Assembly (NCBI GenBank): GCA_021295695.1
Contig: JAGWBW010000040.1
Coordinates: 23,728-82,288 of the forward strand
Reading direction: 5' to 3'
From: Candidatus Latescibacterota bacterium
GTDB lineage: Bacteria; Latescibacterota; UBA2968
DNA: 58,561 nt
Position 1 is the stretch's first letter; each line of letters opens with the position of its first letter. Position numbers and translations under genes: made by a program. A model generated the notes under the pieces. It was given only the letters and a program-made list of their open reading frames with translations. It was not told the origin of the DNA and ran no database searches. Below are positions 1,477 to 32,650 of the stretch, piece after piece.

Positions 1477-2448
1477 TCAAGTCGTCCAGTCAAAGACGAC
1501 CGCGAGACGTTCGGTTTTTTTGTGCAAAAGGTCACGATATGCTTGCTGGCATCTTTCGGGATCGTATGTTGTGTAGATGCCATCGACATTGACGCGGTCC
1601 TCGGCCAACCATTTGAGGGCACCGGCGAAGTTTTCAAAAACGCTGTTGATGCGAAAATCTTCTGGCTGGCGCGGCAGTTCCCATTCCCAGCCGCTGCGAA
1701 TGGTGACGTAATTAAAGAAGATGAGGTGGTGCAAGTCGTGTATGGGCAGATCCGTGTACCGGCGCCAGGGGGTGGCTATGCAAACGACTTCGCCGCGTTT
1801 TCTCACGGTGCCTGCTGCATCGAGCAGGGCTTGTTCGTGTCCCGAGCATTCAATGGCGAGTTGGAATTGGCCCGCGAGGTCGGAATTTTCCGATGGCACG
1901 GCATCCATTACATTGTGAATCCCGGTCTCTGAGGCAATTTGTCGCCGCGAGGCAACCGGGTCACAGGCATAGACTTCATAGCCACAGGCTTGAAAGTTTT
2001 TGGCTGCGAGATGGCCAACGAGGCCGAGTCCAGTGATGAGAATTTTGGCAGGTGGCCGCGCCGAGGTGGTCGTGAGGGTGGTCATTGAGACACCCATCAT
2101 GCGGGCAAATACAGATGTTTCTGGCGTGAGGTTGTCGGGCAGGCGAATCACTTGCGAGGCGGGCTTTCGCTGGTAGGAGGCGTGATTGCCCGGGCAGAAG
2201 GCGAGGTCGCCCGGCGAAATGCCCGAGACATTTTTCCCCACTTTTTCAACTTTGAATGCCGCTGCGTATCCCGACTGTCTGGGAAAATTATTGCCGAGAT
2301 ACCTGCTGTTTAATTCTGTGCCCGCGCTGATGAGGGTTGCAAGGGTATGACCTGCGACTTCGTTTGCACCGATCGCGTCTGTATCGATTTCAAAGGGTAG
2401 CAATTTTGCGGTTTCGCGTTCGGTGAATGTGACTGCGTATTCGTTCAT
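1477..2448 (-). CDS. Zinc-type (MDR) alcohol dehydrogenase-like oxidoreductase
   Basis: A 323-residue medium-chain dehydrogenase/reductase. It has an N-terminal GroES-like domain (SAGTELNSRYLG, PGDLAFCPGNHASY) and a Rossmann domain with the nucleotide-binding loop ITGLGLVGHLAA followed by the acidic-type CDPVASRR. The usual structural-zinc cysteine cluster is not evident, as in the threonine-dehydrogenase-like and bacteriochlorophyllide-reductase-like branches. I chose the ATG at 2448 because AGAGGA precedes it and it begins one base after the stop of the DUF3604 gene, which shows translational coupling. The two products probably act in one pathway; the substrate is unknown. Confidence 0.8.
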   Translation of the reverse strand: MNEYAVTFTERETAKLLPFEIDTDAIGANEVAGHTLATLISAGTELNSRYLGNNFPRQSGYAAAFKVEKVGKNVSGISPGDLAFCPGNHASYQRKPASQVIRLPDNLTPETSVFARMMGVSMTTLTTTSARPPAKILITGLGLVGHLAAKNFQACGYEVYACDPVASRRQIASETGIHNVMDAVPSENSDLAGQFQLAIECSGHEQALLDAAGTVRKRGEVVCIATPWRRYTDLPIHDLHHLIFFNYVTIRSGWEWELPRQPEDFRINSVFENFAGALKWLAEDRVNVDGIYTTYDPERCQQAYRDLLHKKTERLAVVFDWTT

Positions 2449-2449
2449 G

Positions 2450-4642
2450 TTATATTTCCTCTTTTTCATTTTGCACATATACCGGACTGACCCACGCTTT
2501 TCCGCCATCGATTTGCGTTACGCGCACCCAATAGGGATGACAGCCGGGATGTAGCTGGTTCTCAGTAAAAGTAAATGCGATGTCGCGTCCAATGCCTGTG
2601 GGCATTTGTTCAAATACGACCTGCATATCAATACCACCTGCGTCGATTACAACCGGTCCTTGTGCGATCTCTATAAGTTTTAACGCTTGCGACAAGACGG
2701 GTGTTCCAAAATTGATTGTTGCATCGGGCGGGGCATCCAGGGTTAAAATGATGCCATCTGCATCGCCGGTTGTCACCGATGTCCAGGCGACCGATTGGTC
2801 GTCGGCAGATTGAATACCTTCGGATGCGGAATCAAAGGCAAAGCCTCTGACATCTGCGATTCGCCCTTTGTCTATCGTTACTTCGCCATCCCAGCGCACG
2901 AGGCGGTTGCGCGCCCGGATGCGCTGCCCGGACCACGCGATGCGTATGTCTGTTTGATGCCGGGGAATGGTTTGGGGGTGTGTGTAGATAATTTCCGTGC
3001 CTCTGAAGATATCCACTTTTTCTATTGGTGCTGTGCCCCAAACACTGACGGCGATTTCGGGTGGTGTGTTTGTTACCAGATCCGATCCCATGGGCTGTCC
3101 ACCTACGGTGACATCTACGAGGATGCGCTGTCCACTGGTGCCGTAACACCGCCTTGTTTTTATTGCTTCCCAGATGCTTTCTCGCGTCAGTTCTTTTGCA
3201 TATACGCATGTGATTCCGCCGTAAATACCGAATGCGCCACTGCCCGGATGCGCGGCGCCTGGGCGGCCTTTGTGGTCATCACTGCCGCAGGTGAATCCGA
3301 TGCGGTAGCCTTTTTCAAGGGCTTCTTTTAAGAACCATTCAAATTCGCCCCATTCAGATAAAACTTCAATCACGGTCTCCAGATTTGGATCGTGCCAGGT
3401 CAGGTTGGCATAGCGCCCGCCCACATGGGGTATGAGCAGCGCGTCTTTTCCCTTGAGTGCGCGGTAGAGGTCGGTTATGTGCTGGCAATCTGTATCTATA
3501 TCTGATTTTTCTTCAATCAGGACATGGCTGGAGCGGTGCAACGGTCCATCGTCGCCGGGATAATAGACATTGTGATCGCCGCCCAAAGGTGTGTTGCCCG
3601 ACCATTCCCAACCGACAAAGGCGACGAATTTGCCCGCTGTATTTTGGGTATTGGCCTGGTGTTTGATTTCATTCCAGATTGTTTCTGTAATCTGAAAGTC
3701 ATTGCCCTGATGTCCAGCAAAATCCATCCACGCCTTTTCTCGCGCAAAACGAAAGTATGATGATACTGGATTGGTACCCACGGTTTCTTCGCTTTGTCCG
3801 TGGAGATCTCCCCAAAAGGGTTGCGCGTCTTTGCGCGTTTCGATGCATATTAGTGGATTGCACTCTGCCTCAAAGTCATTGTTTTCATCTTTGACCCTTA
3901 CGCGATAAACACTCGGTGTGGGGGCTGTCACATTTTCAAATCGCATGACGCCGCGATGCTCTGGTTGAAATACATAAGTTTCGGGTAGTCCGTGCAGGCC
4001 ATCGGCGTTGATTTTTACCGTGCCTCTGTATTCTGCACACGGATTGCCCCACACATCTTCGGCTTTTACTCCGATCCAGGTTGGTTCCCCCGGTGTTGTT
4101 TCAGAAGGTCCCAGTACGACGAGTTTATTGGGCGCGCCGCTTATGATTGGTACTTTGGGAGATGGCACTTCTGTATATACCCAGGTGCCGCACCAGTCAA
4201 CCGATACCCGAAATTCAAACGCATCTTTGCAAAAGGTTTGCGCGCGACTGCCCGCACTTCCGCCGGATGTATCACCCAATATTAGTGTTATGGTGTCGCC
4301 TTCTGACAATGAGTCGTCAAATACATCAATGGTCACACAATATCGCCACGGTCGAATATAGCGCTGTCTGTCAAATACGGCTTTTAAGGTCGCCGGTCCT
4401 GTGGTCGAGACCGATGCATAAGCAAGTGCGGCAGGGTCGTCAAATTGTGGTCGTTGCCAGTCGCTTACGTCGCGCCAGGCGATTTTGATTACACCGCCGT
4501 CGTCTATTCCGTATTTGCCCACGTGATATACAATGCGCCAGGTGCCCGTTTCTCCGGCGACAACTGCCCGGTCTGGATCAATTTCTGCCCAGCCGTAATA
4601 GCTGCGAATTTGTTCTTCTGTCATGTCGTGTTTTTCTATCAT
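2450..4642 (-). CDS. DUF3604 domain-containing protein (PHP-like putative hydrolase)
   Basis: A 730-residue protein with an N-terminal beta-sandwich region (about 1-280) and a DUF3604 domain. The domain opens with FWGDLHGQSEE and later shows HVGGRYA and FTCGSDDHKGRPG, a set of His/Asp residues resembling the metal centre of PHP-type phosphoesterases. The C-terminal ~200 residues are again beta-rich. DUF3604 proteins are large, often encoded next to sulfatases or oxidoreductases in environmental bacteria, and their substrates are not established. No signal peptide is visible, which suggests a cytoplasmic location. The ATG has AAAGGA 4-5 nt upstream. The stop is one base before the MDR dehydrogenase start. 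Confidence 0.85.
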   Translation of the reverse strand: MIEKHDMTEEQIRSYYGWAEIDPDRAVVAGETGTWRIVYHVGKYGIDDGGVIKIAWRDVSDWQRPQFDDPAALAYASVSTTGPATLKAVFDRQRYIRPWRYCVTIDVFDDSLSEGDTITLILGDTSGGSAGSRAQTFCKDAFEFRVSVDWCGTWVYTEVPSPKVPIISGAPNKLVVLGPSETTPGEPTWIGVKAEDVWGNPCAEYRGTVKINADGLHGLPETYVFQPEHRGVMRFENVTAPTPSVYRVRVKDENNDFEAECNPLICIETRKDAQPFWGDLHGQSEETVGTNPVSSYFRFAREKAWMDFAGHQGNDFQITETIWNEIKHQANTQNTAGKFVAFVGWEWSGNTPLGGDHNVYYPGDDGPLHRSSHVLIEEKSDIDTDCQHITDLYRALKGKDALLIPHVGGRYANLTWHDPNLETVIEVLSEWGEFEWFLKEALEKGYRIGFTCGSDDHKGRPGAAHPGSGAFGIYGGITCVYAKELTRESIWEAIKTRRCYGTSGQRILVDVTVGGQPMGSDLVTNTPPEIAVSVWGTAPIEKVDIFRGTEIIYTHPQTIPRHQTDIRIAWSGQRIRARNRLVRWDGEVTIDKGRIADVRGFAFDSASEGIQSADDQSVAWTSVTTGDADGIILTLDAPPDATINFGTPVLSQALKLIEIAQGPVVIDAGGIDMQVVFEQMPTGIGRDIAFTFTENQLHPGCHPYWVRVTQIDGGKAWVSPVYVQNEKEEI

Positions 4643-4771: not shown

Positions 4772-6103
4772 ATGAATGAAGATCTTTTTATTAAACCCGT
4801 GTCGCAAACTGGGCAGGAGATGGTAGGCGCGCCTTTGGCAGAACGCCTGCGTCCTCAGGTGCTGGACGATATTGTGGGGCAGGATCATCTCGTTGGGCCG
4901 GGTGCGCCCCTTCGCGCGCTTATTGAGAGTGACCGCTTGCCGTCCATGATTTTCTGGGGACCACCGGGTTCGGGCAAGACAACGCTGGCTCGGGTTATTG
5001 CCGGTACGACGCAGAGTCGTTTTGTGTCTTTTAGCGCGGTTACCGCGGGCATCAAAGAGGCGCGGGAGATTATTGCGCGGGCGCGAGAAGAGTTGCGTTT
5101 GGGCAGGCGCACTATCTTTTTTGTGGATGAGATTCACCGTTTTAACAAAGCACAGCAAGATGCTTTTTTGCCTCATGTCGAAAATGGTGTTATCACGCTC
5201 ATTGGTGCCACTACTGAAAATCCCTCTTTTGAGGTCAATTCAGCCCTGCTTTCACGCACGCGCGTTTTTGTGCTCAATTTGCTCGATACGTCCCATATTC
5301 GCCAGGTGCTGGACCGCGCTATTGCCAATTCGGAACACGGGTTTCCCGATTTGCAGATTGATGGCCAGGCTTTGGATCTCATTGCCGAGACTGCGGAGGG
5401 AGATGCCCGCCGATCTCTGAACGCGCTTGAAACGGTTGCTGCGGCTGTCGAAGCCACGGGTTGCGACCCCACGCCCGAAACAGTGCGCGACATTCTCGGT
5501 CGCAAGGCTCATCTTTACGATAAGTCTGGGGAAGAGCACTACAATATTATTTCGGCTTTTCACAAGAGTCTCCGCGGCAGCGATCCACATGCCGCACTGT
5601 ATTGGCTCGCGCGTATGATGGCGTCTGGGGAGCATCCGCATTATATTTTGAGGCGTATGATCCGTTTTGCTTCTGAAGATGTGGGCACTGCTGATCCGCG
5701 CGCTTTGCAAGTTGCGCTCAATGCCCGCGAGTCCTACGATTTTTTGGACAGTCCCGAGGGCGATTTAGCTATTGCCCAGGCGACGGTTTATCTCGCCACA
5801 GCCCCCAAGAGCAATGCCGTTTATGCCGCGTATAATAACGCGCTTTCCGATGTTGAAAAGCATCCCAATCTGCCCGTGCCCCTGCATATTCGCAATGCGC
5901 CGACAAAGCTTATGAAAGATCTCGATTACGGCAAGGGGTATCAATATGCACATGACGATCCGGATGGATATATTGATCAAGTGTATTTTCCCGATAATTT
6001 GAGCGACCGCACTTATTATCGCCCTACGGATCGCGGCTATGAAAAACATATTCGCGCGCTTATGGATTGGTGGGATGAATTGAGAAAGAAAAAATCTTTT
6101 TGA
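4772..6103 (+). CDS. rarA: Replication-associated recombination protein A (RarA/MgsA AAA+ ATPase)
   Basis: A 443-residue AAA+ ATPase related to clamp loaders. RarA acts at stalled replication forks and interacts with single-strand binding protein. Visible motifs are Walker A GPPGSGKTT (about 63-71), Walker B FFVDEIHRFNK (about 116-126) and sensor 1 TLIGATTENPSFEVN. The C-terminal MgsA domain shows EDVGTADPRAL and the conserved end segment YKYPHD-like YQYAHDDPDGY. The length is normal for the family. I chose the ATG at 4772 because GAGGTGA lies 6 nt upstream; a GTG nine bases earlier would overlap that site. It stands alone, divergent from the DUF3604 gene. Confidence 0.95.
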   Translation: MNEDLFIKPVSQTGQEMVGAPLAERLRPQVLDDIVGQDHLVGPGAPLRALIESDRLPSMIFWGPPGSGKTTLARVIAGTTQSRFVSFSAVTAGIKEAREIIARAREELRLGRRTIFFVDEIHRFNKAQQDAFLPHVENGVITLIGATTENPSFEVNSALLSRTRVFVLNLLDTSHIRQVLDRAIANSEHGFPDLQIDGQALDLIAETAEGDARRSLNALETVAAAVEATGCDPTPETVRDILGRKAHLYDKSGEEHYNIISAFHKSLRGSDPHAALYWLARMMASGEHPHYILRRMIRFASEDVGTADPRALQVALNARESYDFLDSPEGDLAIAQATVYLATAPKSNAVYAAYNNALSDVEKHPNLPVPLHIRNAPTKLMKDLDYGKGYQYAHDDPDGYIDQVYFPDNLSDRTYYRPTDRGYEKHIRALMDWWDELRKKKSF

Positions 6104-6113
6104 TAGAGCACCC

Positions 6114-6135
6114 AAAAGTGCATCCATGCCGGTGT
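6114..6135 (+). repeat. Leader-module repeat, copy A
   Basis: A 22-bp word containing TGCATCCATGCCGGTGT. It recurs with two mismatches at 6850-6871 on the other side of the HTH gene. Each copy is followed after about 100 bp by a GAAAGGAGG ribosome-binding site and a very short ORF. Confidence 0.6.
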
Positions 6136-6154
6136 AAGGGCGAAGAGGTATGTC

Positions 6155-6183
6155 TTGACAATGCGGTAAGATTGCCGCAATTT
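6155..6183 (+). promoter_or_regulatory. Possible sigma-70 promoter before the leader ORF and HTH gene
   Basis: A perfect -35 box TTGACA (6155-6160) is followed after 17 bp by CAATTT, a weak -10. An imperfect inverted repeat, TGCGG...CCGCA, lies inside the spacer and could be an operator. It reads toward the mini-ORF and the HTH gene. Confidence 0.4.
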
Positions 6184-6225
6184 TGCAGATGACCGTTTAC
6201 TTGTGTCTATTTGAAAGGAGGCAAC

Positions 6226-6288
6226 ATGAAGGCTTTAATTTTTGTATTTACGACAAATCACATACCTGGTTCGCCTCCGGTTAGATAG
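6226..6288 (+). CDS. Possible 20-residue leader peptide
   Basis: An ATG placed 5 nt after a near-perfect Shine-Dalgarno (GAAAGGAGG) opens a 20-codon frame starting MKALIFVFTTNH and ending in TAG. It is too short for family recognition. A similarly placed mini-ORF starting MKTLT lies downstream of the HTH gene at 6978, and both follow a shared repeat. The strong RBS suggests ribosomes load here. Its likely role would be as a leader peptide controlling the downstream HTH gene at 6410. That is inference; it could also be a non-coding RNA with an accidental frame. Confidence 0.4.
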   Translation: MKALIFVFTTNHIPGSPPVR

Positions 6289-6409
6289 CTGCTTTGGGCG
6301 TTTACAATCTGTCCGTCGCAGTTGTATCGTTCCTCCGGAGCCGCGGGTCTGATATGTGTGGTAGTTTTTCGCCCGACATATTCATTCCCTGGAGGAGACG
6401 AACGGACAT

Positions 6410-6784
6410 ATGTACAATCCTGATTTTTGGGAAGTTCAGTTAGATCAATCAGACCTGGAAATGATGCCGGATGATGTTGGCCTGTGGCACGAGTCGCCCG
6501 AAGACCAAAATTTGCGCTATAAACATGAAGATCGGGTTGGGCGTCTCATCCCACAGATCGATACGCTCTTAAATCGATCGCTTACGCAAAGACAATTTGA
6601 AGCTGCTGTTTTGTATTTCAAATACGGCAAGACCCAGCGGGAAATTTCAGAGATTATGGGTATTTCGCGCAGGGTGGTCAGCCAGCATTTGTTCGGCATT
6701 ACGCGAAATGGAAAATCCATAGGCGGTGCTGTGAAAAAACTTCGCAAACTCTGCCGCAAACACGGCATTGCCATTACAAATTAA
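6410..6784 (+). CDS. Small HTH protein, sigma-70 region 4-like
   Basis: A 124-residue protein. Its first ~45 residues are acidic and not recognisable. The C-terminal half reads LTQRQFEAAVLYFKYGKT, then QREISEIMGISRRVVSQHL, then a basic tail VKKLRKLCRKHG. That is the pattern of a sigma-70 region 4 / LuxR-type helix-turn-helix, so the protein probably binds DNA as a regulator rather than a full sigma factor, since region 2 is absent. An RBS-like GGAGGAG lies about 12 nt upstream of the ATG. The gene is flanked by two related leader modules and is followed immediately by a strong hairpin. Confidence 0.7.
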   Translation: MYNPDFWEVQLDQSDLEMMPDDVGLWHESPEDQNLRYKHEDRVGRLIPQIDTLLNRSLTQRQFEAAVLYFKYGKTQREISEIMGISRRVVSQHLFGITRNGKSIGGAVKKLRKLCRKHGIAITN

Positions 6785-6786
6785 AA

Positions 6787-6816
6787 AACGCCTGAGTGTT
6801 ATAGCTCAGGCGTTTC
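6787..6816 (+). terminator. Hairpin terminator after the HTH gene
   Basis: A perfect 10-bp stem (AACGCCTGAG paired with CTCAGGCGTT) around an 8-nt loop begins two bases after the HTH stop codon. It ends in a short TT tract, so termination may be moderate. Confidence 0.65.
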
Positions 6817-6849
6817 TGGTTGTCGAGAAAGAGTTCTAAAAATCTACAC

Positions 6850-6871
6850 AAAACTGCATCCATGCTGGTGT
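6850..6871 (+). repeat. Leader-module repeat, copy B
   Basis: The second copy of the word containing TGCATCCATGCTGGTGT, matching 6114-6135 with two mismatches. It lies about 105 bp upstream of another GAAAGGAGG site and mini-ORF. Confidence 0.6.
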
Positions 6872-6977
6872 TTATGTAACCGGGCCAACAGGTTGGTGCG
6901 GTTTGCTAATATATTGGCATCCACCGCGCAAAACGCTTTCCGGAAGCGGAGTCACGCATATCGAAAGGAGGTTTAAG

Positions 6978-7010
6978 ATGAAAACTTTAACTTCGGAGGT
7001 GAACGCCTGA
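6978..7010 (+). CDS. Possible 10-residue mini-ORF with strong RBS
   Basis: ATG follows GAAAGGAGGTTTAAG and opens the frame MKTLTSEVNA, then TGA. The start resembles the MKAL start of the upstream mini-ORF at 6226, including the aligned sequence ATGAAxxCTTTAA. No gene follows before the terminator at 7038, so this unit looks like a short self-contained transcript. Whether a peptide is made is unknown. Confidence 0.35.
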   Translation: MKTLTSEVNA

Positions 7011-7028
7011 TTTTCAGGCTGTGACCCT

Positions 7029-7412
7029 TCAGACGTTGGGCCAGGGACATTGTTCCTGGCCCTTTTTTGTCAGTTCTTCCACTGGTTTATCTTGATCGAG
7101 CAAATATTCCTGTCTCGCCATCATTGTCAAAATACCCACCAGAAGACTGAGCAGCAGCACCAATCCCGCGGGCATAAATTTTCGCGTGCGGACAAATCGG
7201 CTCATAAATATGCCCGTGAGCAATAATCCGACCAATCCGCCGGTCAAAAACCCAGTAGCGGGATCGCTCAGGCTTTGCCAGCATCCAAAGAGCGCGGCAA
7301 TACCACAGATCGCGCCTGCGAATAAGGATGCAGAACTCCCGGATTTCATCTTTCCTACGATGCCTCCCACAATTAACAATACGCCGTAAATCGCCAGATC
7401 CTCACTCTCCAA
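7029..7412 (-). CDS. UPF0136/TMEM14-like small membrane protein
   Basis: A protein of about 127 residues with four predicted membrane segments: LAIYGVLLIVGGIVG, SLFAGAICGIAALFG, FLTGGLVGLLLTGIF and LVLLLSLLVGILTMM. The first three, with the GxxxG-like small-residue spacing and the KxGSSASL loop, match the UPF0136/TMEM14 family, whose bacterial role is unknown. There is no ATG at the expected place. A TTG at 7412 is preceded by CAGGGGAT and overlaps the end of the oxidoreductase gene by 11 nt, so translation is probably coupled. An in-frame ATG at 7460 would add 16 residues. The last codons overlap a terminator hairpin that serves the opposite strand. Confidence 0.7.
   Translation of the reverse strand: MESEDLAIYGVLLIVGGIVGKMKSGSSASLFAGAICGIAALFGCWQSLSDPATGFLTGGLVGLLLTGIFMSRFVRTRKFMPAGLVLLLSLLVGILTMMARQEYLLDQDKPVEELTKKGQEQCPWPNV
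7038..7068 (+). terminator. Strong intrinsic terminator of the mini-ORF unit
   Basis: GGGCCAGG pairs with CCTGGCCC around a 9-nt loop and is followed by six T. It ends the plus-strand transcript carrying the mini-ORF at 6978. It lies inside the 3' end of the convergent membrane-protein gene. Confidence 0.85.
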
Positions 7413-8652
7413 AGTATCCCCTGCTCGCCCAAACTTTTTTTGCCAGTGCTTTGGCGCCATCGGATGGTTCAATTTCTCCCAGAATACTGCTCGGCGGTTG
7501 TCCCGTTTTTTTGCGCGTGGGATCGGGCGACCAATCATCTCGTTCGTATTTTTTTCTTATGGACTCGTTGCGAAAATCGGGCACTTCCATAGGTGCCGAA
7601 TCACTGAGCACCGATCTCCACGCTTGAATGCCCGCGATACTCATGTCGATGCCGCGATACACATTGAGGTAGGGTTGCTCGCCCGTGCGAATCGCTTCGG
7701 CGAAATGGTAACTGGTGAAAAAATCGCCGCCGCCATGCCCGGCTTGTGTTGCGCGGTCGTGATGTACCGGGAAATCCGGTCTGTAAACGGTTTCTACCGG
7801 TTCTCCTTTTCGCTTTTCCCACGGTTCTTTCCACACGCGTAGCCGATATTTATCGCCGTTGCGACAGTTTTCCATCACGCCCTTGTTGCCGTGGATTCTG
7901 ACGTAATTGCCGTGTCCGCGCAACGCGCCGTGCAGAGATTTCATGACGGCGTCATTGTCCATCCGACAGATGATCACGCCCGCTATATCTGCGCGATTCA
8001 TGTGCAGGGTTTTGGTCATATCGCCAAAATCATAGGGTATGACAAATCCGTTCACTTTCACTGGGCGCGTATCTGTGATGTACATTACCGGTGCTATCGA
8101 ATGCGTGCAATAATAGGTCGAGGGAATCCAGTTGCGCCAGTGATTGCGCCCGCAACTGCGCCCCAATTTCACTTCCGGCGGATCGGGATGTACGTACTCG
8201 CCCTCTCCGTATTTAAATTCGCCTACGTGTCCTTTTTGGTAGAGCCGCCTCATTTCCTGATTGTACGCCGTATAGGGATAATTTTCGGCAAACATATAAA
8301 TTTTACCGCTGCGCTCTACTGCGCGTGCAAGTGCGACGCCTTCGCTCAATGTATGGCAGGCAGCGGTTTCACTCATGACGTGTTTCCCGGCGTTCAGTGC
8401 TTCAACGGCAAAGGGCGCGTGTTCGTGAAAATAATTGGCGAGTACTACCGCATCCATATCGTGTTCCAAAAATGCCTGGTAATCTACATAAGTCGATACA
8501 CCGAGTGCTTTGCCTTCGGGTCTTAGTCGCTCTTCCCAGGTATCGCAAATTGCAACCAGTTCCATTCCCGTCGGTGTTGCGGCCCGCATAAATGATCGCC
8601 CGCGTCCCACGCCGACGACGCCCACGCGAATTGGTTTGTTTTTTTCGGGCAT
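7402..8652 (-). CDS. Gfo/Idh/MocA family oxidoreductase
   Basis: A 416-residue NAD(P)-dependent dehydrogenase. The Rossmann motif VGVVGVGRGRSFM lies near residue 10. The usual EKP motif is replaced by SETAACHT, a variant also seen in other members of this family, so catalytic details are unclear. The C-terminal alpha/beta domain (about 130-370) carries the YVHPDPP and GGGDFFTSYHFAEAI segments. Members oxidise or epimerise sugars, inositols and derivatives; the substrate here is unknown. The ATG at 8652 has GGAG eight bases upstream; a GTG at 8655 is an alternative. The gene overlaps the UPF0136-like gene downstream and is separated from mqnA by a terminator. Confidence 0.88.
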   Translation of the reverse strand: MPEKNKPIRVGVVGVGRGRSFMRAATPTGMELVAICDTWEERLRPEGKALGVSTYVDYQAFLEHDMDAVVLANYFHEHAPFAVEALNAGKHVMSETAACHTLSEGVALARAVERSGKIYMFAENYPYTAYNQEMRRLYQKGHVGEFKYGEGEYVHPDPPEVKLGRSCGRNHWRNWIPSTYYCTHSIAPVMYITDTRPVKVNGFVIPYDFGDMTKTLHMNRADIAGVIICRMDNDAVMKSLHGALRGHGNYVRIHGNKGVMENCRNGDKYRLRVWKEPWEKRKGEPVETVYRPDFPVHHDRATQAGHGGGDFFTSYHFAEAIRTGEQPYLNVYRGIDMSIAGIQAWRSVLSDSAPMEVPDFRNESIRKKYERDDWSPDPTRKKTGQPPSSILGEIEPSDGAKALAKKVWASRGYFGE

Positions 8653-25031: not shown

Positions 25032-25060
25032 TTGACATATTATTTTAGAACGCCTAATTT
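25032..25060 (+). promoter_or_regulatory. Sigma-70 promoter upstream of a disrupted gene
   Basis: TTGACA (25032-25037), 17 bp, TAATTT (25055-25060). It reads toward the MITE-like insertion and the DUF4238-like stub at 25307, so it may be the orphaned promoter of that gene. Confidence 0.55.
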
Positions 25061-25123
25061 CTCAACAACTTAACTGTATTCAATTAATCCTTGGGGATTT
25101 ATTTGGGGCTATTATACATAAAA

Positions 25124-25276
25124 ACGTCATGTGTGACTTTGAAATAATGGTGAAGAAAACAAGCAATCAGTGGTCAGCAGTCAGAAAAACAAGGATTTTA
25201 GAATCCAGTGGTTTTGACTTTCTTATATCTGTTTATCGGTATTACTATATGGCGGTTTTGAAGTCACACATCACGT
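25124..25276 (+). mobile_element. MITE-like element, 153 bp, with 21-bp inverted repeats and 8-bp target duplication
   Basis: The ends are inverted repeats: left ACGTCATGTGTGACTT, right (reverse complement) ACGTGATGTGTGACTT, with 18 of 21 bases matching overall. The element is bounded by the direct repeat ACATAAAA at 25116-25123 and 25277-25284. It is too short for a transposase. The open frame across it (25129-25365) has no recognisable features and I do not call it a gene. The mobilising family is not identified; 8-bp duplications are made by several insertion sequence families. Confidence 0.75.
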
Positions 25277-25306
25277 ACATAAAAATAACTATTAGTGGGG
25301 TATTAT

Positions 25307-25357
25307 ATGTCCAAAAAGAAAAAACAGCACTATGTTCCTATTGTTCCCTGTCGTTAA
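25307..25357 (+). pseudogene. 5' stub of a DUF4238-like gene
   Basis: ATG preceded by GTGGGG opens MSKKKKQHYVPIVPCR and then a stop. MSKKKKQHYVP is the typical N-terminus of DUF4238 proteins, which normally continue for 250-350 residues with a KFYLRxF segment. Nothing resembling the rest is found before the IS607 remnant, so this appears to be a truncated gene. It could be chance, since only about 11 residues match. Confidence 0.45.
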
Positions 25358-25523
25358 CTCTTTAGGATACTATACCATATCTAATCTCTTAAGTTTAATT
25401 GATCAGAGTTCCTGTAACATAAAGTCCATGCTAAAAACTTATCCCCCCGCTACATTTCGATTCGTGTTCCTTAGCATGACACCACACCCTTCTCCCCAGC
25501 GTTTCCCTAAACAGTCTGTTATT

Positions 25524-25907
25524 CATCAATAAGACGACTTGGATAGTCAAGTTGCACATCCAAAAAGATATCCCGATGCTGAAATCATCAAAGACATTAG
25601 TAGTGGACTCAACGACAAGTGAAAATTACTTAAAGCCTTATTGGAATGTCTCCACAAAGGCGATAAACTCCGCATTGTGGTTGCCCACAAAGACCGCCTT
25701 ACAAGATTCGACACAGACATTATCCGCTTCTTGCTCGAACAAAATAGTGGCGAACTCGTGGTTTTCAACGATTATTTACCGCAGAGTTCACAAGAAGAAT
25801 TTGTCGCCGATGTTCTCACAATCCTTACTGTCTTCACTACAGACGTCAATGGGTTACAGTGATACCGTAACCAAATCGCGGAAGATAAGAGTATTTTTGA
25901 GAGTTGA
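25524..25907 (+). pseudogene. IS607-type serine recombinase TnpA, degraded
   Basis: In one frame the sequence reads DDLDSQVAHPKRYPDAEII, then KDISSGLNDK, a TGA at 25620, LRIVVAHKDRLTRFDTDII, GELVVFNDY, EEFVADVLTILTVFTTDVNG, a second TGA at 25860, then YRNQIAEDKSIFES and the stop at 25905. This is the C-terminal two thirds of the IS607 resolvase. The N-terminal MerR-like HTH and the catalytic-serine segment (normally ARVSS before QKDDL) are absent or scrambled (SVIHQ then TAA). The recombinase cannot be made. It overlaps the start of tnpB. Confidence 0.85.
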
Positions 25908-26982
25908 ACAACGCGCAATTTTTCGGCAATGGGTGGGCACAGCCAGATATGTCTATAATCGCACTGTGGAATATCTAAAGCAACCAGATATGACCACAAA
26001 TTGGTATCGCGTTAAGAAATCTATTCTTCCCGACTTACCTGACTGGGCTAAATCTGTGCCGTATCAAATCAAGTCTATTGCGGTGCGTGATGCCTGCAAG
26101 GCTGTAAAAGCTGCGAAGTTAAAGTGCCTGAAAGGTGATGGTTTTCAAAAAGTCAGTTTTCGGTCACGCAGACAACCTATCCAATCTATATATATTCCGA
26201 AATCCGCAATAAATCAGAAAGGCGTTTATCACACAAAACTAGGTGCGATTCACTATTTTGAATCGTTACCTAAAGCATTTGGGGATAGTCGGTTGGTACG
26301 CCACAACGGTCGCTACTACCTAACTGTTTCCTATAAAGTACAACTGCACATTGGTGAGAATCAAGCCCGTGTTGTTGCGCTTGATCCTGGTATCCGTTGT
26401 TTTCAAACGTTTTATTCTGAAAACAGTTGTGGCTTCTTAGGCAAATACGATATAGGCCGTATTCAACGGCTGTGCCAACATCTTGACGATTTGATTGCAA
26501 GGTCAGCAAAAGTGTCAGCAAAGCAGCGACATAGGATGCAAAAAGCTTGTAACCGTATGCGCCACAAAATTCGCGATTTGGTGGATGAGCTACACCATAA
26601 GGTTGCACTATTCCTTGTCCAAAATTTCGATGTCATCTTATTGCCGACCTTTGAAAGTTCACAGATGGTCAAGCAGGGCAGGCGTAAGTTGCGAAGTAAG
26701 TCTGTTCGTCAAATGCTATCTTGGGCGCATTATCGTTTTAAAGTGTTCTTAAAACACAAAGCCTTCGAGTATGGTAAGGTCGTATTAGATGTCTGTGAAG
26801 CCTATACATCCAAAACCGTAAGTTGGACAGGCGAAGTCATTGACAGATTGGGTGGTGCAAAAACGATAATAGGAAACGACGGAAAAACAATGGATCGAGA
26901 TATCAATGGCGCACGCGGAATATTTCTGCGTGCTTTGGCAGATACGCCCGCGTTACAGAAAGCCTGTAATGTGCATTGTTAA
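25849..26982 (+). CDS. tnpB: TnpB, RNA-guided nuclease-like protein of an IS607-type element
   Basis: A 377-residue TnpB starting with ATG at 25849 inside the 3' end of tnpA. The three RuvC acidic positions are visible: ALDPGIR (D near 177), LLPTFESSQM (E near 269) and DRDINGARG (D near 351). The four-cysteine zinc finger normally between the second and third motifs is replaced by YTSKTVSWTGEVIDRLGG, with no CxxC pairs. TnpB proteins cut DNA using an RNA made from the element's right end. The frame is intact although its partner recombinase is dead. Codon use is more AT-rich than in neighbouring genes. Confidence 0.88.
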   Translation: MGYSDTVTKSRKIRVFLRVEQRAIFRQWVGTARYVYNRTVEYLKQPDMTTNWYRVKKSILPDLPDWAKSVPYQIKSIAVRDACKAVKAAKLKCLKGDGFQKVSFRSRRQPIQSIYIPKSAINQKGVYHTKLGAIHYFESLPKAFGDSRLVRHNGRYYLTVSYKVQLHIGENQARVVALDPGIRCFQTFYSENSCGFLGKYDIGRIQRLCQHLDDLIARSAKVSAKQRHRMQKACNRMRHKIRDLVDELHHKVALFLVQNFDVILLPTFESSQMVKQGRRKLRSKSVRQMLSWAHYRFKVFLKHKAFEYGKVVLDVCEAYTSKTVSWTGEVIDRLGGAKTIIGNDGKTMDRDINGARGIFLRALADTPALQKACNVHC

Positions 26983-27013
26983 TGCTTATGGATTTTTGTA
27001 AGCATTATTAACA
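26977..27013 (+). repeat. Imperfect palindrome at the 3' end of tnpB
   Basis: TGTTAATGCTTA (26977-26988, containing the tnpB stop) pairs with TAAGCATTATTAACA (26999-27013), with a 3-nt bulge and a 10-nt loop. It is where the right end of the element and the 3' part of a guide RNA would be expected. It is followed by A6, not T, so it is not a plus-strand terminator. Confidence 0.6.
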
Positions 27014-27033
27014 AAAAAGTATCGGGACGATGC

Positions 27034-27591
27034 ATGCTTGAACAAACACCCCCCTTCGTTTTTGAGACGCCTACGGGCATTCTGAGTGGGCGCGATCGAG
27101 GTGAAGTCCTGCTCAATCAGCTTATGGCATTTATGCAAACAGCCGATGATGATGCGGTTACGCCTCTCGACTTTACCAATGTCTCGTTTATCGATATTTC
27201 CTGTGCCGACGAGTTGCTCTGCAAACTCCTCATGCGTATTGGCAGTGGAGAGCTTGGCAATCGTTTTACCTTTATCCAAAATGCCAATGATTCCGTGCGC
27301 GAGACCTTCGAGGCCGTGCTCAAATTGCGCGATCTGGCCGCGCTTTTCAGAGATGACGAAGGCGATATTCAGGTGCTGGGTGTGCTCAAAACGCCCATTC
27401 GGGAAGCTCTCGACGTTGTACTGATTCGAAAAAAAGGTACGTCTTCCGAGTTTGCCCACGCGCTGCACAAAAATATCAATATCGCATGCAATCGGCTCAA
27501 TGCCCTTCAAAAAATGGGCCTCGTGTGCCGTGTGCGCGATGGCAGTGTACCCGGCGGTGGTCGGCAATTCTTTTATGAATCAATTGTGTAG
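27034..27591 (+). CDS. STAS-like (DUF4325-type) protein with C-terminal winged helix
   Basis: A 185-residue protein. Residues ~40-100 form a STAS-like module: VTPLDFTNVSFIDISCADELL, then FTFIQNANDSVRETFEAVL. Residues ~125-180 look like a winged helix (AHALHKNINIACNRLNALQK, then MGLVCRVRDGSVPGGGRQFF). This combination suggests a regulator or an adaptor that binds DNA. It is the first gene of a co-directional run with a 27-nt gap to nurA-like. The ATG is preceded only by a weak GGGAC, 50 bp after tnpB, so its promoter may lie in or before the IS607 remnant. Confidence 0.7.
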   Translation: MLEQTPPFVFETPTGILSGRDRGEVLLNQLMAFMQTADDDAVTPLDFTNVSFIDISCADELLCKLLMRIGSGELGNRFTFIQNANDSVRETFEAVLKLRDLAALFRDDEGDIQVLGVLKTPIREALDVVLIRKKGTSSEFAHALHKNINIACNRLNALQKMGLVCRVRDGSVPGGGRQFFYESIV

Positions 27592-27618
27592 CCAAGAGCC
27601 ACCTCACTGGAGCCTTTT

Positions 27619-28839
27619 ATGCTCGATTACGGTTTGCTCAAACGCCAGATTGACCAGATGGCGGTTGATGCCAGTACTTTGCAAGACGACTTTTTTGCCC
27701 GTATTGATCTGGCGTGTTCCGAAATGGATCGCTGGGAAGATGCCTGGGAAACCCTGGGTATTAAAATTGCGCGCAGCCGCACTTCCTGGCTGGTTGCCCA
27801 ACTCGGCGGGTCGATTACCGAGGCATGTCCAAGACCCGACCGCCCCAAAGAACTCACCGTTATTGCCGCCGATGGGTCTCAGATATTCCCCGACAGGCAC
27901 GAAATCGCCAATTGTTTTCTAATCAATATTGGCTATGTCGTCATTCATTACGGCACTGGAGAACGCCCGGTGTTAAACAGCGAACCAACGCTTTTTTACG
28001 ATGAAGACGACCTCTATCAGGAATGGGCGGGCAAGCGTAGCCCTATCACCCGCGAAGTCGTTGGCGTGCGGCGCAATGCCATGGAACTCGAAAAGGTCGT
28101 CGCCCTCTCTGCCCAGGCGCACGCAGAAGGTCGAACCTGTGTCGGGCTGACCGATGGAACCCTGATTTTGTGGATGCTCGAAGGCAAACCTTACGATTTC
28201 CGCCGCGAAACGCTTCAGACCACGCTCGCCGGTTTGGAGCGTCTGCGCGAGCTCCGCGTTCCCATTGCAGGGTATATTTCAGATCCCGGCAGTGCCGATG
28301 TGCTCAATGCCCTGCGCGTGGGCCTCTGTCCCGAACAGCCCCCCAACTGCGACAAGTGTCCTTGGAAAGCTGCCGAGGCACAGCATCTTCTCGATCTTGA
28401 TGGCGATTCTGAACCGCCTGCACCCATTCCCTGTGAACCCATTGCTGGCGTTACCGACGATATGCTGTATGCCCGCAAACTCAAACGCGGCGAGCGCAGT
28501 GGCGTTTATTGCAGCGCATCTAAAATTCTCGAGGACTACGGTCCCCACCGCATCTGTTTTTTTTACGTACACACGGGTTGGGAAATTGGGCGCGTCGAAA
28601 TTCCCGAATGGGTTGCCAAAGATCGAGAGCTGCTCGATCTCGTACACACCGCGATTGTCGATCAGGTCGATAAGGGGCGCGGATATCCCGTCGTCTTATC
28701 CGAATCACACGAACGCGCCATTGTGCGCGGAGCTGACCGCGACATATTTTTTAAGTTCTTAAAAGACTCTTTTGTCAAAAACAACATCAAAACCGAACAG
28801 TCGCTCAAACAACTAAAAAAAATGGCTGCATCAGTGTAG
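27619..28839 (+). CDS. nurA: NurA domain nuclease
   Basis: A 406-residue protein of the NurA family, a 5'-3' nuclease that works with the HerA translocase on DNA ends. The core strand VIAADGSQIFPDRHE (catalytic Asp near residue 84) and the following VVIHYGTGERPVLNSEP and LTDGTLILWML (second Asp) fit the NurA RNase H-like fold. The late segments ICFFYVHTGWEIGRVEIPEW and DKGRGYPVVLSESHERAIV, with its His, are also expected. A four-cysteine insert (CPEQPPNCDKC near 235-245) is present. GGAG lies six bases before the ATG. HerA is encoded five genes downstream (29976). Confidence 0.85.
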   Translation: MLDYGLLKRQIDQMAVDASTLQDDFFARIDLACSEMDRWEDAWETLGIKIARSRTSWLVAQLGGSITEACPRPDRPKELTVIAADGSQIFPDRHEIANCFLINIGYVVIHYGTGERPVLNSEPTLFYDEDDLYQEWAGKRSPITREVVGVRRNAMELEKVVALSAQAHAEGRTCVGLTDGTLILWMLEGKPYDFRRETLQTTLAGLERLRELRVPIAGYISDPGSADVLNALRVGLCPEQPPNCDKCPWKAAEAQHLLDLDGDSEPPAPIPCEPIAGVTDDMLYARKLKRGERSGVYCSASKILEDYGPHRICFFYVHTGWEIGRVEIPEWVAKDRELLDLVHTAIVDQVDKGRGYPVVLSESHERAIVRGADRDIFFKFLKDSFVKNNIKTEQSLKQLKKMAASV

Positions 28840-28853
28840 CGAAGGGTATCATC

Positions 28854-29126
28854 ATGGCGGCTCAATTTATTCTCACGGATTATATTAACGATCTTATGGC
28901 GCAAGCCGAATACGACAAACTTGAAGATGGTACATTCGGTGGACGTATTCCCGTATGCAAGGGTGTGGTGGCGTTTGCCAATTCGCTTCGCGATTGTGAA
29001 TCGGAACTTCATTCTATACTTGAAGATTGGATTTTTGTGGGTATTAAACTTGGACATAGACTTCCCGTAATTAATGATATTGACTTAAACAAGGTGCCCA
29101 TGCATGAATCGTTGGACACCGTGTAA
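28854..29126 (+). CDS. hicB: HicB-like antitoxin
   Basis: A 90-residue protein with the partial RNase H-like HicB fold: FILTDYINDLMAQAEYDKLE, then GTFGGRIPVCKGVVAFANS, then LEDWIFVGIKLGHRLPVI. HicB neutralises HicA and usually represses the operon. It starts 14 nt after nurA and overlaps hicA by 23 nt. The order antitoxin-toxin is the reverse of the classical hicAB order but is common for this subgroup. No separate DNA-binding domain is visible in this short form. Confidence 0.8.
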   Translation: MAAQFILTDYINDLMAQAEYDKLEDGTFGGRIPVCKGVVAFANSLRDCESELHSILEDWIFVGIKLGHRLPVINDIDLNKVPMHESLDTV

Positions 29127-29337
29127 ACGTCGCGATTTTATTCGTCGGCTTCGCAAACTCGGATTTGAGGGTCCCTATTCGGGTACACGTCACCAGTTTA
29201 TGACCTATCAAAATCACCGATTGTCCATCCCGTCCAATTCTGAATACTCTGTTCCACAATTGAGGTTTATGGTCCGAGAAATTGGAGCGATTCTTGAACG
29301 CGAAATCACAATGTCAGATTGGTATGCCCTTTTATGA
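29104..29337 (+). CDS. hicA: HicA-like mRNA interferase toxin
   Basis: A 77-residue protein with the HicA double-stranded RNA-binding fold: KRRDFIRRLRKLGFEGPYSGTRH, with the catalytic His at residue 30, then LSIPSN and VPQLRFMVREIGAI. HicA toxins cleave mRNA during translation. The open frame and catalytic His are intact, so it should be active. The start overlaps hicB, and it lies 12 nt before the HAS-barrel-like gene. Confidence 0.82.
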   Translation: MNRWTPCKRRDFIRRLRKLGFEGPYSGTRHQFMTYQNHRLSIPSNSEYSVPQLRFMVREIGAILEREITMSDWYALL

Positions 29338-29349
29338 TAGAGGTTCCGC

Positions 29350-29946
29350 ATGGCACTCACACAACTTGATATCAGCACTGAATATATTGGCGAAATTGTC
29401 GAAAGCTCTACTTCGCAATTTACTTCTGAAAGCCGAGAGCTAAATGGCGCGCCGCCATTCGGCTCCTTTGTCAAGACCCTTGGCGCATTGCCTGTATATG
29501 GTCTGGTTTTCAATGTGTGTACGCACTCTATTGAACCCAACCGACGCGCCACGGCGTATGGGCTTACCGAACAAGAATTGCGCGAAGAGCAGCCGCAAAT
29601 TTTTGAACTTCTCAAAACCGAATTTGAAGCTGTTATTATTGGCTATGGCGATGACCGCGGTCCGCAACAGGTTTTGCCCCCGCAACCGCCCGGTATTCAC
29701 AGCTTTGTTTTTCCATGTACCGAGTCCGAAATTAAAGCCCTGACCAATAGCGGGGATTTTCTCCGCAGCATTTTATGTGGTAACCGCCTGCCCGCCGACG
29801 ATCTCATCATCGCCTCGGTGCGAAATGCCTGGGCAGCCCGCGCTTCGGATATGCCCTATCTGGTGAGTATTGGCAAAGACCTGTGTCGCCTTATCCGCGA
29901 CGACTATGACCGGCTGAGTTCTATTATGCGGCGGATTTCGCAATAA
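29350..29946 (+). CDS. HAS-barrel-like protein associated with HerA
   Basis: A 198-residue protein. It has an N-terminal beta region (YIGEIVESSTSQF, PPFGSFVKTLGALPVYGLVFNV), a central ELREEQPQIFELLKTEF segment and VLPPQPPGIHSFVFPC. A helical C-terminus follows (DDLIIASVRNAWAARAS, LCRLIRDDYDRLSSIMRRI). From memory, proteins with the same GSxVK...QPQIFxLLKTEF...LPPxPPxIH pattern are encoded next to HerA-like ATPases in cyanobacteria. The name HAS-barrel (HerA-ATP synthase barrel) for the N-terminus is inference. It could recruit or regulate the HerA motor. Confidence 0.55.
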   Translation: MALTQLDISTEYIGEIVESSTSQFTSESRELNGAPPFGSFVKTLGALPVYGLVFNVCTHSIEPNRRATAYGLTEQELREEQPQIFELLKTEFEAVIIGYGDDRGPQQVLPPQPPGIHSFVFPCTESEIKALTNSGDFLRSILCGNRLPADDLIIASVRNAWAARASDMPYLVSIGKDLCRLIRDDYDRLSSIMRRISQ

Positions 29947-29975
29947 GTGTGAAGAAAGGCTGAAAGCTATCTTTT

Positions 29976-31649
29976 ATGAATGATCTCTGGAATAATCTAA
30001 ACGGTTCGCCCAATATTCAGGATGGCGGCGAAATAGGCGTTGTCACGCAGGGGTCTTTGACCGAGGGTGTTGAGATGAAGCTCAACCCCGACCGCAGCGT
30101 AGAAGACGTCAAAGCCGGCAAATTTGTGGTTATTGAGGGCTATAAAAATCAGTTTTTCTCCATGATTACCGACCTGAGTTTGGATGCCACCAATCCCGAA
30201 ATTTTGCTTTATCCGCCGCGCGAGAGCGACCAGTTGTTGCACAGTGTTCTCAATGGGGCCAGCACCTATGTCACCGTTGCACTGCGCCCCATGCTCATGC
30301 TGGAACAGGGCGAAGAAGTTGTCGATGATCCGCGTCCTGTGAAAACTATTCCCAGTCATTTTTCCAAAGTTGTTGATGCCGAAGAAGAGGATGTATCGCG
30401 CGTTTTTGGCAGCGAAGAAAAAGACGACCGGTTTTTCAATATGGGCACACCGCTGGACATGGATACGCCGGTGTGTATCAATCTCAATCGCTTTGTCGAG
30501 CGCAGCAATGGCATTTTTGGCAAAACCGGCACGGGAAAATCTTTTCTCACGCGCCTGGTGTTGTGTGGTCTGATTAAAAACAAGAAAGCCGTCAATCTCA
30601 TTTTTGATATGCACAATGAATACGGTTTTCGCGCTATGAAAGAGGGCGGTCAAGGAAATAGCTTTGTCAAGGGTCTCAAACAACTTTTTGGGAATCAGGT
30701 CGCCCTATTTTCCCTCGACCCCGAATCGTCTCGACAGCGCGGTATTCAACCCGATCACGAAGTGTACATTACCTACGATCAGATCGCCGTTGAAGATGTT
30801 ATTGCGTTGCAAGACGAACTGCAACTCAATCCTACTGCCTCTGAATCTGCCTATCTGGTTTACGCGATGTACAAAAACCGCTGGCTGCGCCAATTACTCT
30901 CTCTTGACGGTCCCGATGTCGAGCAGTTTGCCGAGGATATTGGTGCAAATAAAAGCTCGCTTTCCGCGTTGCACCGCAAACTTAAACGCATTGAAAGTTT
31001 TCCCTTTATGGTCAATAGTCTGAATGGTGCCGATGCGGTCGATACAATGATGGACTACATCGACCGCGGTATTCACATTGTGCTCGAATTTGGTCGGCAA
31101 ACCAGTATGCTCGCCTATTTGCTCGTGGCGAATATTCTCTCGCGTCGTATTCACGAACAATACGTCACAAAAAGCGAAAAATTTTACGCCTCGCAAAATC
31201 CCGAAGATCAGCCCCGGCACCTGGTCATCACTATTGAAGAAGCCCACAAGTTTCTCAACCCCGCGACAGCGCGGCAAACCATTTTTGGCACGATTGCCAG
31301 GGAAATGCGTAAATACTACGTCTCGCTCCTCGTAGTTGATCAACGCCCCTCGGGTATTGACGAAGAAGTGCTTTCACAACTCGGCACAAAAATCACGGCT
31401 TTGCTCAATGACGAAAAAGACATCCAGGGGGTGCTCACAGGGGTATCCAATGCCGCTGGCTTGCGCAGTGTTCTGGCCAGTCTCGATTCCAAACAGCAAG
31501 CCCTTGTGTTTGGGCATGCAGTCCCCATGCCCGTGGTTATCAAAACGCGCGATTACGATGAGATTTTTTACAAAGCAATGGGCGATTTATCCGATGAAGA
31601 GAGAATGGAAAAGGCCGAAGCCGCTTCAGCTGCTATCTTTGGCGATTAA
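29976..31649 (+). CDS. herA: HerA-like hexameric DNA translocase ATPase
   Basis: A 557-residue FtsK/HerA-type ATPase. The N-terminal ~150 residues are beta-rich and fit a HAS barrel. Walker A is FGKTGTGKSFLTR (about 181-193), Walker B is LVITIEEAHKFLNP (about 414-427), and the later VVDQRPSGIDEEVLSQLGTKI carries the arginine expected at the inter-subunit site. HerA translocates DNA and feeds NurA in DNA-end processing; HerA paralogues also occur in anti-phage systems. It is two bases upstream of the glycosyltransferase. The RBS is weak. Confidence 0.9.
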   Translation: MNDLWNNLNGSPNIQDGGEIGVVTQGSLTEGVEMKLNPDRSVEDVKAGKFVVIEGYKNQFFSMITDLSLDATNPEILLYPPRESDQLLHSVLNGASTYVTVALRPMLMLEQGEEVVDDPRPVKTIPSHFSKVVDAEEEDVSRVFGSEEKDDRFFNMGTPLDMDTPVCINLNRFVERSNGIFGKTGTGKSFLTRLVLCGLIKNKKAVNLIFDMHNEYGFRAMKEGGQGNSFVKGLKQLFGNQVALFSLDPESSRQRGIQPDHEVYITYDQIAVEDVIALQDELQLNPTASESAYLVYAMYKNRWLRQLLSLDGPDVEQFAEDIGANKSSLSALHRKLKRIESFPFMVNSLNGADAVDTMMDYIDRGIHIVLEFGRQTSMLAYLLVANILSRRIHEQYVTKSEKFYASQNPEDQPRHLVITIEEAHKFLNPATARQTIFGTIAREMRKYYVSLLVVDQRPSGIDEEVLSQLGTKITALLNDEKDIQGVLTGVSNAAGLRSVLASLDSKQQALVFGHAVPMPVVIKTRDYDEIFYKAMGDLSDEERMEKAEAASAAIFGD

Positions 31650-31651
31650 AA

Positions 31652-32650
31652 ATGAAACTAATTGTCCAGATTCCCTGCCTCAACGAAGAAGAAACCCTGC
31701 CCGATACGGTTAACGATATTCCGCGTGAAGTTCCCGGTATTGATAAAGTCGAGATTCTGGTCATTGACGATGGTTCTACGGATCGCACGTCTGAGGTCGC
31801 GCGCGAACTTGGCGTGGATCATATTGTCAAATTCCCAAAAAATCGCGGCCTGGGCCATGCATTCAAAGCGGGTTTTGACACCTGCCTCAAACGCGGTGCT
31901 GATATTATTGTCAATACCGATGGCGATAACCAGTACTATGGTCCCGATATTGCCGCGCTCGTTCAGCCCATTATCGAGAAACGCGCTCATATTGTGATTG
32001 GTGATCGGCAGACAGATGGCATCGGCCATTTTTCTTTTTTTAAGCGATGGTTACAGCGTTTGGGCAGCCGCGTCATCAGTCGCCTCGCCCATGTTGAGGT
32101 GCCCGATGTTGCCAGTGGTTTTCGCGCCTATTCTCGAGACGCCGCCCTGCATTTGTCGATGTTCACGGATTTTGATCACACCGCCGAGCACGTTGTGCAA
32201 GCGGGTCAAGACCGTCTCGCTGTCGAAACTGTGTCCATTCGCACAAATCCCAAAACGCGCGAATCGCGCCTCTTCAAAAATCCGGGCGTATTTGTTTTTA
32301 AGTCGGGCATGATTAGTCTGCGGACTTACGCACGCTACAAAGCACTTCGCATTTTTTCAGCTTTTGGTGCTGTTGTATTTGCTTTTGGCACGTTAATCGG
32401 TCTCCGATTTCTCTATTTTTTCTTTTTTACCGATGAAGGCGAGCTCCACATTCAATCGCTTATCCTCGCCGCTATTCTCTTGCTCGCTGGATTTCAGATG
32501 TTTCTCACCGGTATTGTAGCCGATCTCATCGCCACCAACCGCGCTCTTCTCGAAGATGTTTCCTCGCGTGTGCGATTTATGGAACTCGGATCAGGATTTT
32601 CAGGATTGAAGGATGAACGGGATGAAAGCGATCAAGGGTTTCAGGATTGA
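31652..32650 (+). CDS. Family 2 glycosyltransferase (DPM1-like) with C-terminal membrane segments
   Basis: A 332-residue enzyme. The GT-A domain shows VQIPCLNEEETLPDTV, the LVIDDGSTDRTSEVA motif (about 35-48), RGLGHAFKAGFD, and the metal-binding-type NTDGDNQYYGPDI (near 88-100). Two membrane spans follow (about 226-252 and 262-288). It resembles polyprenyl-phosphate mannose/glucose synthases. The last ~18 residues (from SGFSGLKDERDE) are encoded by a dispersed-type repeat that appears to have extended the gene. The start is two bases after herA, so it is in the same transcript, but its role is probably unrelated. Confidence 0.87.
   Translation: MKLIVQIPCLNEEETLPDTVNDIPREVPGIDKVEILVIDDGSTDRTSEVARELGVDHIVKFPKNRGLGHAFKAGFDTCLKRGADIIVNTDGDNQYYGPDIAALVQPIIEKRAHIVIGDRQTDGIGHFSFFKRWLQRLGSRVISRLAHVEVPDVASGFRAYSRDAALHLSMFTDFDHTAEHVVQAGQDRLAVETVSIRTNPKTRESRLFKNPGVFVFKSGMISLRTYARYKALRIFSAFGAVVFAFGTLIGLRFLYFFFFTDEGELHIQSLILAAILLLAGFQMFLTGIVADLIATNRALLEDVSSRVRFMELGSGFSGLKDERDESDQGFQD

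Follow-up and report, generated by a model that had tools for sequence, protein, structure and literature searches.

The DNA analysed here (the window: 58,561 nucleotides (nt) of contig JAGWBW010000040.1, positions 23,728 to 82,288, from the Candidatus Latescibacterota assembly GCA_021295695.1) carries an operon in which a predicted repressor, the nuclease NurA, a stand-alone HAS-barrel protein and the ATPase HerA are encoded together with a HicBA toxin-antitoxin pair. By comparing this operon, its upstream region and genes elsewhere in the same genomes, we conclude that it is probably driven by a regulon resembling CapK/CapS, a switch that regulates the transcription of immune operons (EMBO J 2026, PMC13373217), with the kinase acting in trans and HicBA hitchhiking.

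In a resting cell, a dimer of the CapS-like repressor would occupy a TTAA-N10-TTAA palindrome just 3' of the promoter and keep the operon repressed; a CapK-like kinase of the GHKL type would phosphorylate a serine of the STAS domain and thereby free the operator, the operon and a second, two-gene target would be induced, and HerA-NurA would then process DNA ends. HicBA would have arrived at the nurA-HAS junction no later than the ancestor of the window's genus, and, read from the operon, would persist as an addiction module subject to repeated loss or breakage.

The six open reading frames (ORFs) are confirmed, are all co-directional (forward strand), and stand where a sequence-only reading of the window had placed them. 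Four of them form the conserved core, in the order STAS/winged-helix gene (27034..27591), nurA (27619..28839; PF09376 and an alignment of nine sequences), HAS-barrel gene (29350..29946; PF09378) and herA (29976..31649; PF01935 and PF09378), such that the HAS gene sits between nurA and herA and adjoins herA in the compared loci; the NurA domain is present, and HerA has its HAS-barrel and DUF87 domains. The comparison covered 35 HerA-bearing loci from relatives plus the window, 36 in all, of which 35 can be evaluated for HicBA (L061 is cut before nurA) and 34 for the lead gene (L035 and L061 are cut). The STAS gene lies 5' of nurA in 29 of these 34, which bears out the sequence-only reading in its view that HerA and NurA belong together and that the lead gene is a real partner. 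The other five loci (G022, G024, G029, G035 and G043) have nurA-HAS-herA without it, and a STAS match is found nowhere in those five genomes. Throughout the class, both the gene order and the sequences are preserved, under strong purifying selection. The operon is not universal: genera such as g2 and g6 are without it, and among 60 genomes HerA matches were found in 38 (two of them, in G017 and G042, weak) and STAS gene matches in 34. A public search with the first gene returned 31 loci, most of them labelled Candidatus Latescibacterota or Gemmatimonadetes/Gemmatimonadota.

Putative operator, repressor and kinase

Before the operon in families f1-f4, 3' of a TTGACA-type promoter read by eye, lies a palindrome, TTAATTGAATTCAATTAA, of the form TTAA-N10-TTAA. 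It was spotted before the CapS paper was taken into account, and its half-sites and spacing equal those of the wide CapS palindrome (PMC13373217). The copy in the window, TTAACTGTATTCAATTAA (25070..25087), has two mismatches to the consensus and follows a promoter at 25032..25060 on the forward strand (TTGACA, a 17 nt spacer, TAATTT) that was likewise read by eye, as was the similarly placed TTGACA-type hexamer of relatives; two consensus promoter scans did not report it. Palindrome and CapS-like gene occur together: the palindrome is present at all 29 loci with the STAS gene, at 28 of them within the upstream stretches scanned (400 nt; 350 for L056; 2,100 for the window, owing to an insertion sequence) and in G009 about 730 nt upstream, and at none of the five loci that lack the gene, where the best match in 1.5-2.5 kb upstream of nurA has 8-9 mismatches. 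When up to three mismatches are allowed, it is found at the operon in 10/10 operon-bearing genomes searched and has no match in the two genomes searched that lack the operon, the reversed palindrome giving 0-1 matches per strand and genome as a control. Further matches occur in some genomes (five in G014, 0-2 in others), and the half-sites vary in a few loci, for example L048.

In the window strain this arrangement is interrupted. Alignment of the window to all nine relatives compared runs as far as about 25087 and resumes at 27024, and between these points stands a TnpB-type insertion sequence (25088..27023, forward strand; TnpB ORF 25552-26982, Pfam OrfB_IS605/Cas12f1-like) that none of the nine carries. 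About 57 nt of leader are missing from the window at this site, where eight of the nine relatives have leader alone and the ninth, G009, carries other DNA of about 720 nt. Because the insertion separates operator from start codon, operator control in the window strain may differ or be weakened. The mobile-element debris that had been taken to suit a defence island thus amounts to this one insertion sequence. As a side observation, a possible leader hairpin, conserved in relatives, was seen by eye just 5' of the capS-like start in L031-L040 (CATCGTTCC ... GGRACGATG); the window lacks the 5' half of it.

The product of the lead gene, about 185 residues long, has a STAS domain followed by a winged helix, which is the CapS architecture, as judged from profile, model and alignments. 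A profile of 20 relatives matches PDB entries 9z72/9z73 (E 8e-10; positions 20-183) and 9z71 (E 3.4e-6), and these entries match the CapS repressors of Vibrio cholerae and Enterobacter roggenkampii described in PMC13373217. Ser56, the putative phospho-acceptor, is invariant in 20/20 proteins and occupies the column of the serine of V. gigantis CapS and of 9z71. In known CapS the phospho-acceptor serine is S54 (E. roggenkampii) and DNA is contacted by N145, K151 and G169-G170 (PMC13373217); the glycine pair is kept in most aligned rows. These comparisons suggest a CapS-like protein, distantly related to the repressor of anti-phage operons. Foldseek searches with the model of the STAS protein gave no CapS entry among the best rows, nor on a second look, although the fold library may predate these entries; the fold lists neither support nor exclude a CapS identity.

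A candidate kinase came from a Fraserbacteria contig, in which a GHKL gene lies directly 5' of the STAS gene (L156 7019-8552). With this protein as query, a homologue is found in 34 of the 60 genomes, a set identical (compared by eye) to that of the STAS gene, and both are absent from the other 26. Just 5' of the STAS gene is where the kinase gene lies in 16 of 17 genomes of family f4, the seventeenth (G036) being truncated where its contig stops; in the window's order and in family f3 it is elsewhere in the genome and does not adjoin the STAS gene, being located in the window's own genome (G000) at C201:83077-83829 and in G008 at a distance from the STAS gene (1.85 Mb versus 5.09 Mb). The GHKL domain is found at 32.7 bits (HATPase_c, cut-off 26.4), and its motifs ELxxNxxDHS, DLGIGI and RGLGL are kept, by eye; a STAS_2 match before the kinase domain is below cut-off (E 0.029-0.045). 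Two side observations concern these kinases: by eye, no immune operon was recognised adjoining the CapK-like/CapS-like pair of L156, and in PADLOC the CapK-like protein of G008 (L219 1887-2654) matches part of DrmA (E 1.3e-9), probably because of a shared ATPase fold.

The second putative target is a two-gene unit (proteins of about 107 and about 243 residues) present in 14 of the 60 genomes, all of them operon-bearing; a fifteenth, marginal match was left uncounted. A conserved site, TTAATTGTTTTCCATTAA or alike and again TTAA-N10-TTAA, lies 5' of the unit in 13 of the 14 (L183, L185-L196), the fourteenth being that of the window's own genome, which is cut by a contig end; the shuffle test applied to this site used single-base shuffles. 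No Pfam family was found for either protein. The larger one has weak matches to two PHROGs of no assigned function, and the idea that it is a DNA-annealing protein, a guess from one motif, was dropped, there being no Pfam match and only chance-level PDB matches.

The HicBA pair within the operon

In the window, hicB (28854..29126) and hicA (29104..29337), both on the forward strand, overlap by 23 nt. HicB is of the UPF0150 type (PF21748) and too short for a DNA-binding domain, and the pair would therefore be read from the operon; HicA is intact and matches PF07927 below cut-off (E 2.2e-4). Among the 35 evaluable HerA loci, seven have HicBA at the junction of nurA and the HAS gene, all of the window's genus (G000, G003, G004, G005, G007, G008 and G010), and it was not seen there in any compared HerA locus beyond that genus, for which reason we rejected the idea that it is an old member of the operon in the class. 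Even within the genus it is polymorphic: of 11 members compared, four lack it, and in G008 hicA is frameshifted next to a hicB whose protein is identical to that of the window. The catalytic histidine is present in 6/6 intact HicA copies (position judged by eye against a review), and ratios of nonsynonymous to synonymous substitution (dN/dS) of 0.040 for HicB and 0.087 for HicA, calculated with the frameshifted hicA of G008 and the truncated nurA of G005 excluded, indicate purifying selection.

Three of the genomes lacking the pair (G001, G002 and G006) have a clean junction 11-15 nt past the nurA stop and an intact operon. In the fourth, G009, 2.8 kb of other DNA replaces it (L040, oriented 5454-8288), encoding a D12 methyltransferase, a 251-residue protein without family and an N4/N6 methyltransferase. 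The edges of this insert resemble remnants of hicB and hicA, placed at matching offsets, the left score being reached by 2/2000 shuffles and the right by 45/2000, so that the right-edge remnant taken alone is weak; given these apparent leftovers, HicBA probably predates the genus. The operon tree splits the window and G008 from the other eight, places G009 outside, and leaves the three empty genomes ungrouped. Most nodes within the genus have supports of 41-95, and with such low inner supports the losses of HicBA are not countable exactly. Empty alleles have in common a distinct HAS gene start (the first 19 nt), and elsewhere empty and filled alleles differ about as much as empty alleles differ among themselves, a pattern expected under exchange of alleles by recombination. 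A weak case can be made that the nurA-HAS or capS-nurA junctions are insertion hotspots.

Related genes are also found away from the operon. Each of the 12 genomes searched has 3-11 HicA-family matches (nine in the window's genome); in G030 and G036, related HicBA pairs are surrounded by genes that, by eye, look lactonase-like and sugar-binding-protein-like; and G001 and G006 each have a pair, about 50% identical to that of the window, between orthologues of the two genes at 1480-3946, which in the window are 16 nt apart with no HicBA between them. As it is polymorphic and has related pairs elsewhere, we regard HicBA as resembling a mobile addiction module and not a guard: it looks like an ordinary, dispensable-looking passenger of the operon.

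Two other accounts give the toxin pair a function in the operon. The sequence-only reading had proposed that HicA is a guard, released when HerA-NurA is lost or inhibited. The pair does lie within the operon, with small gaps and under purifying selection, and guards of such a kind are known (CreTA for CRISPR-Cas). The proposal nevertheless fails the refuting condition that the sequence-only reading had set for it, namely rarity of HicBA in homologous clusters, and the loci show no constant association: HicBA is rare and seen in one genus, three relatives keep an intact operon across a clean junction, one has other genes in its place and one has a broken hicA, and related pairs reside among other genes. 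We therefore consider the guard very improbable. It is also improbable, though not to the same degree, that HicBA was co-opted in the window's genus as a damage-induced arrest module of the operon. The low dN/dS values (0.04-0.09), an antitoxin whose shortness makes it probably dependent on operon transcription, and the published VapKSC system, in which CapK/CapS-like proteins are coupled to a toxin, would suit co-option; its absence or breakage in five of the 11 genus members and its absence from the compared HerA loci of other genera argue against it. The gene order of a single genome can thus mislead, the eye-catching toxin pair being the least conserved part of the operon.

Weighing the proposed regulation and role

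Several observations weigh against CapK/CapS-like control of the operon. Similarity to known CapS is low, and two of its DNA contacts differ in the alignment: N145 falls opposite Ile/Val-type residues (with an Asn one place earlier) and K151 opposite Asn, which is why we use the label CapS-like and not CapS proper. The Latescibacterota kinases start at the STAS region, without the N-terminal helix-turn-helix of known CapK, and the tryptophan (W68) needed for activation of CapK by single-stranded DNA (PMC13373217) is missing at the aligned place in eight non-Vibrio rows, the column having been derived from two Vibrio CapK proteins and not from the E. roggenkampii sequence; this raises the question of what the kinase senses. 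The kinase gene is in trans in the window's order, whereas every capK of the published set has capS directly after it, and the wide site lies 5' of the repressor gene, whereas in known CapS it comes after that gene. Since the genomes lacking repressor and kinase fall into few clades (at least three, namely g2, g6 and part of f4, plus outer families), the co-occurrence of the two genes does not represent 60 independent observations. Finally, the activity of HerA-NurA, including DNA-end resection, is predicted from family membership.

These discrepancies leave some room for another regulator, for example a LexA-like one, to bind the palindrome while the CapS-like protein and the kinase act elsewhere, since binding by the CapS-like protein is predicted and two contact residues differ. 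We think this unlikely: the palindrome accompanies the CapS-like gene at every locus and is gone wherever nurA-HAS-herA lacks that gene, its half-sites and spacing equal the wide CapS site, and there are few sites per genome. What the operon does is a separate matter. It is possible, if somewhat doubtful, that it is an anti-phage system in which HerA-NurA attacks invading DNA upon infection sensed by the kinase. Of 443 published capKS pairs, 348 precede a known or predicted immune operon and 88 lie just after a restriction-modification system (PMC13373217), the operon of G009 holds methyltransferase genes, and HerA matches PADLOC HerA models (best E 5.4e-37); no PADLOC match at 0.1 was found for NurA, HicB, HicA or the HAS protein. 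Class-wide order and purifying selection differ from the usual patchy pattern of defence genes, yet several genera lack the operon. HerA scores far below the cut-offs of the NCBIfam anti-phage equivalogs (90.6/800 and 71.7/850 bits) and likewise below those of the repair equivalogs (93.1/800 and 70.1/970 bits), so that the curated models are neutral between the two roles. The defence role that the sequence-only reading had suggested loses its HicBA guard and its island of mobile debris, but a different version of it persists, given that anti-phage operons are known to carry CapS-type repressors.

Within the favoured reading, that of a CapK/CapS-like regulon with HicBA as passenger, we lean towards repair rather than defence on account of the class-wide inheritance of gene order and sequence. 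A tentative extension is that a CapK/CapS-like phosphorelay with the kinase in trans controls both HerA-NurA and the two-gene target, and that the kinase receives feedback from what DNA-end processing produces, giving Latescibacterota a self-amplifying, LexA-independent response to damage. If regulation of this kind is real, a CapK/CapS-type immune switch would be tied to DNA-end processing and the line between repair and immunity blurred; for an uncultured phylum, operator, repressor and kinase together offer a prediction whose three parts can each be tested.

The surroundings and other inserts of the operon are recorded here for completeness. A glycosyltransferase gene (31652..32650, forward strand; PF00535) begins 2 nt 3' of herA and is a neighbour of herA in the genus and in G012-G014. 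G013 (L042, oriented 1590-2398) has a nucleotidyltransferase-like gene and a small ORF between the STAS gene and nurA, G012 (L045, oriented 6736-8102) has a gene of the enolase superfamily at the nurA-HAS junction, and in the family f4 loci looked into (L047, L049, L052, L054, L059, L062 and L064) the STAS gene and nurA are separated by a gene whose product matches SH3 weakly. The AlphaFold2 model of the HAS protein is poor (predicted local distance difference test 49) and unfit for a fold search.

Comparison with known systems

Among the matches listed in a literature search (titles, term counts and abstract starts), none joined CapK/CapS with HerA-NurA, and the text of PMC13373217 names neither HerA nor NurA. 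The system described here shares with CapK/CapS a STAS/winged-helix repressor with a conserved serine, a GHKL partner and TTAA-N10-TTAA at the operon promoter. It differs in its cargo, NurA-HAS-HerA not being among the operons named there, in a kinase without helix-turn-helix and the single-stranded-DNA tryptophan, and in having the repressor as first gene of the operon, 3' of the wide site.

As in the NurA-HerA end-resection complex of Deinococcus (PMC9960219), NurA occurs together with a HerA that has a HAS-barrel, whereas here the operon has in addition a stand-alone HAS-barrel protein and a CapS-like gene. The HicB and HicA families are those of type II HicBA systems (PMC11594946), in which both the order hicBA and a HicB without DNA-binding domain are known variants; the pair described here is embedded, in one genus, in a conserved operon of repair type. 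The TdtA operon of Thermus ICEth1 (PMC5365140) also combines a NurA-type nuclease with a HerA-type ATPase, and it has restriction and N4/N6 methylase genes, as the operon of G009 also holds methyltransferase genes; TdtA belongs to a mobile element and functions in DNA transfer, whereas the order described here is kept across a class.

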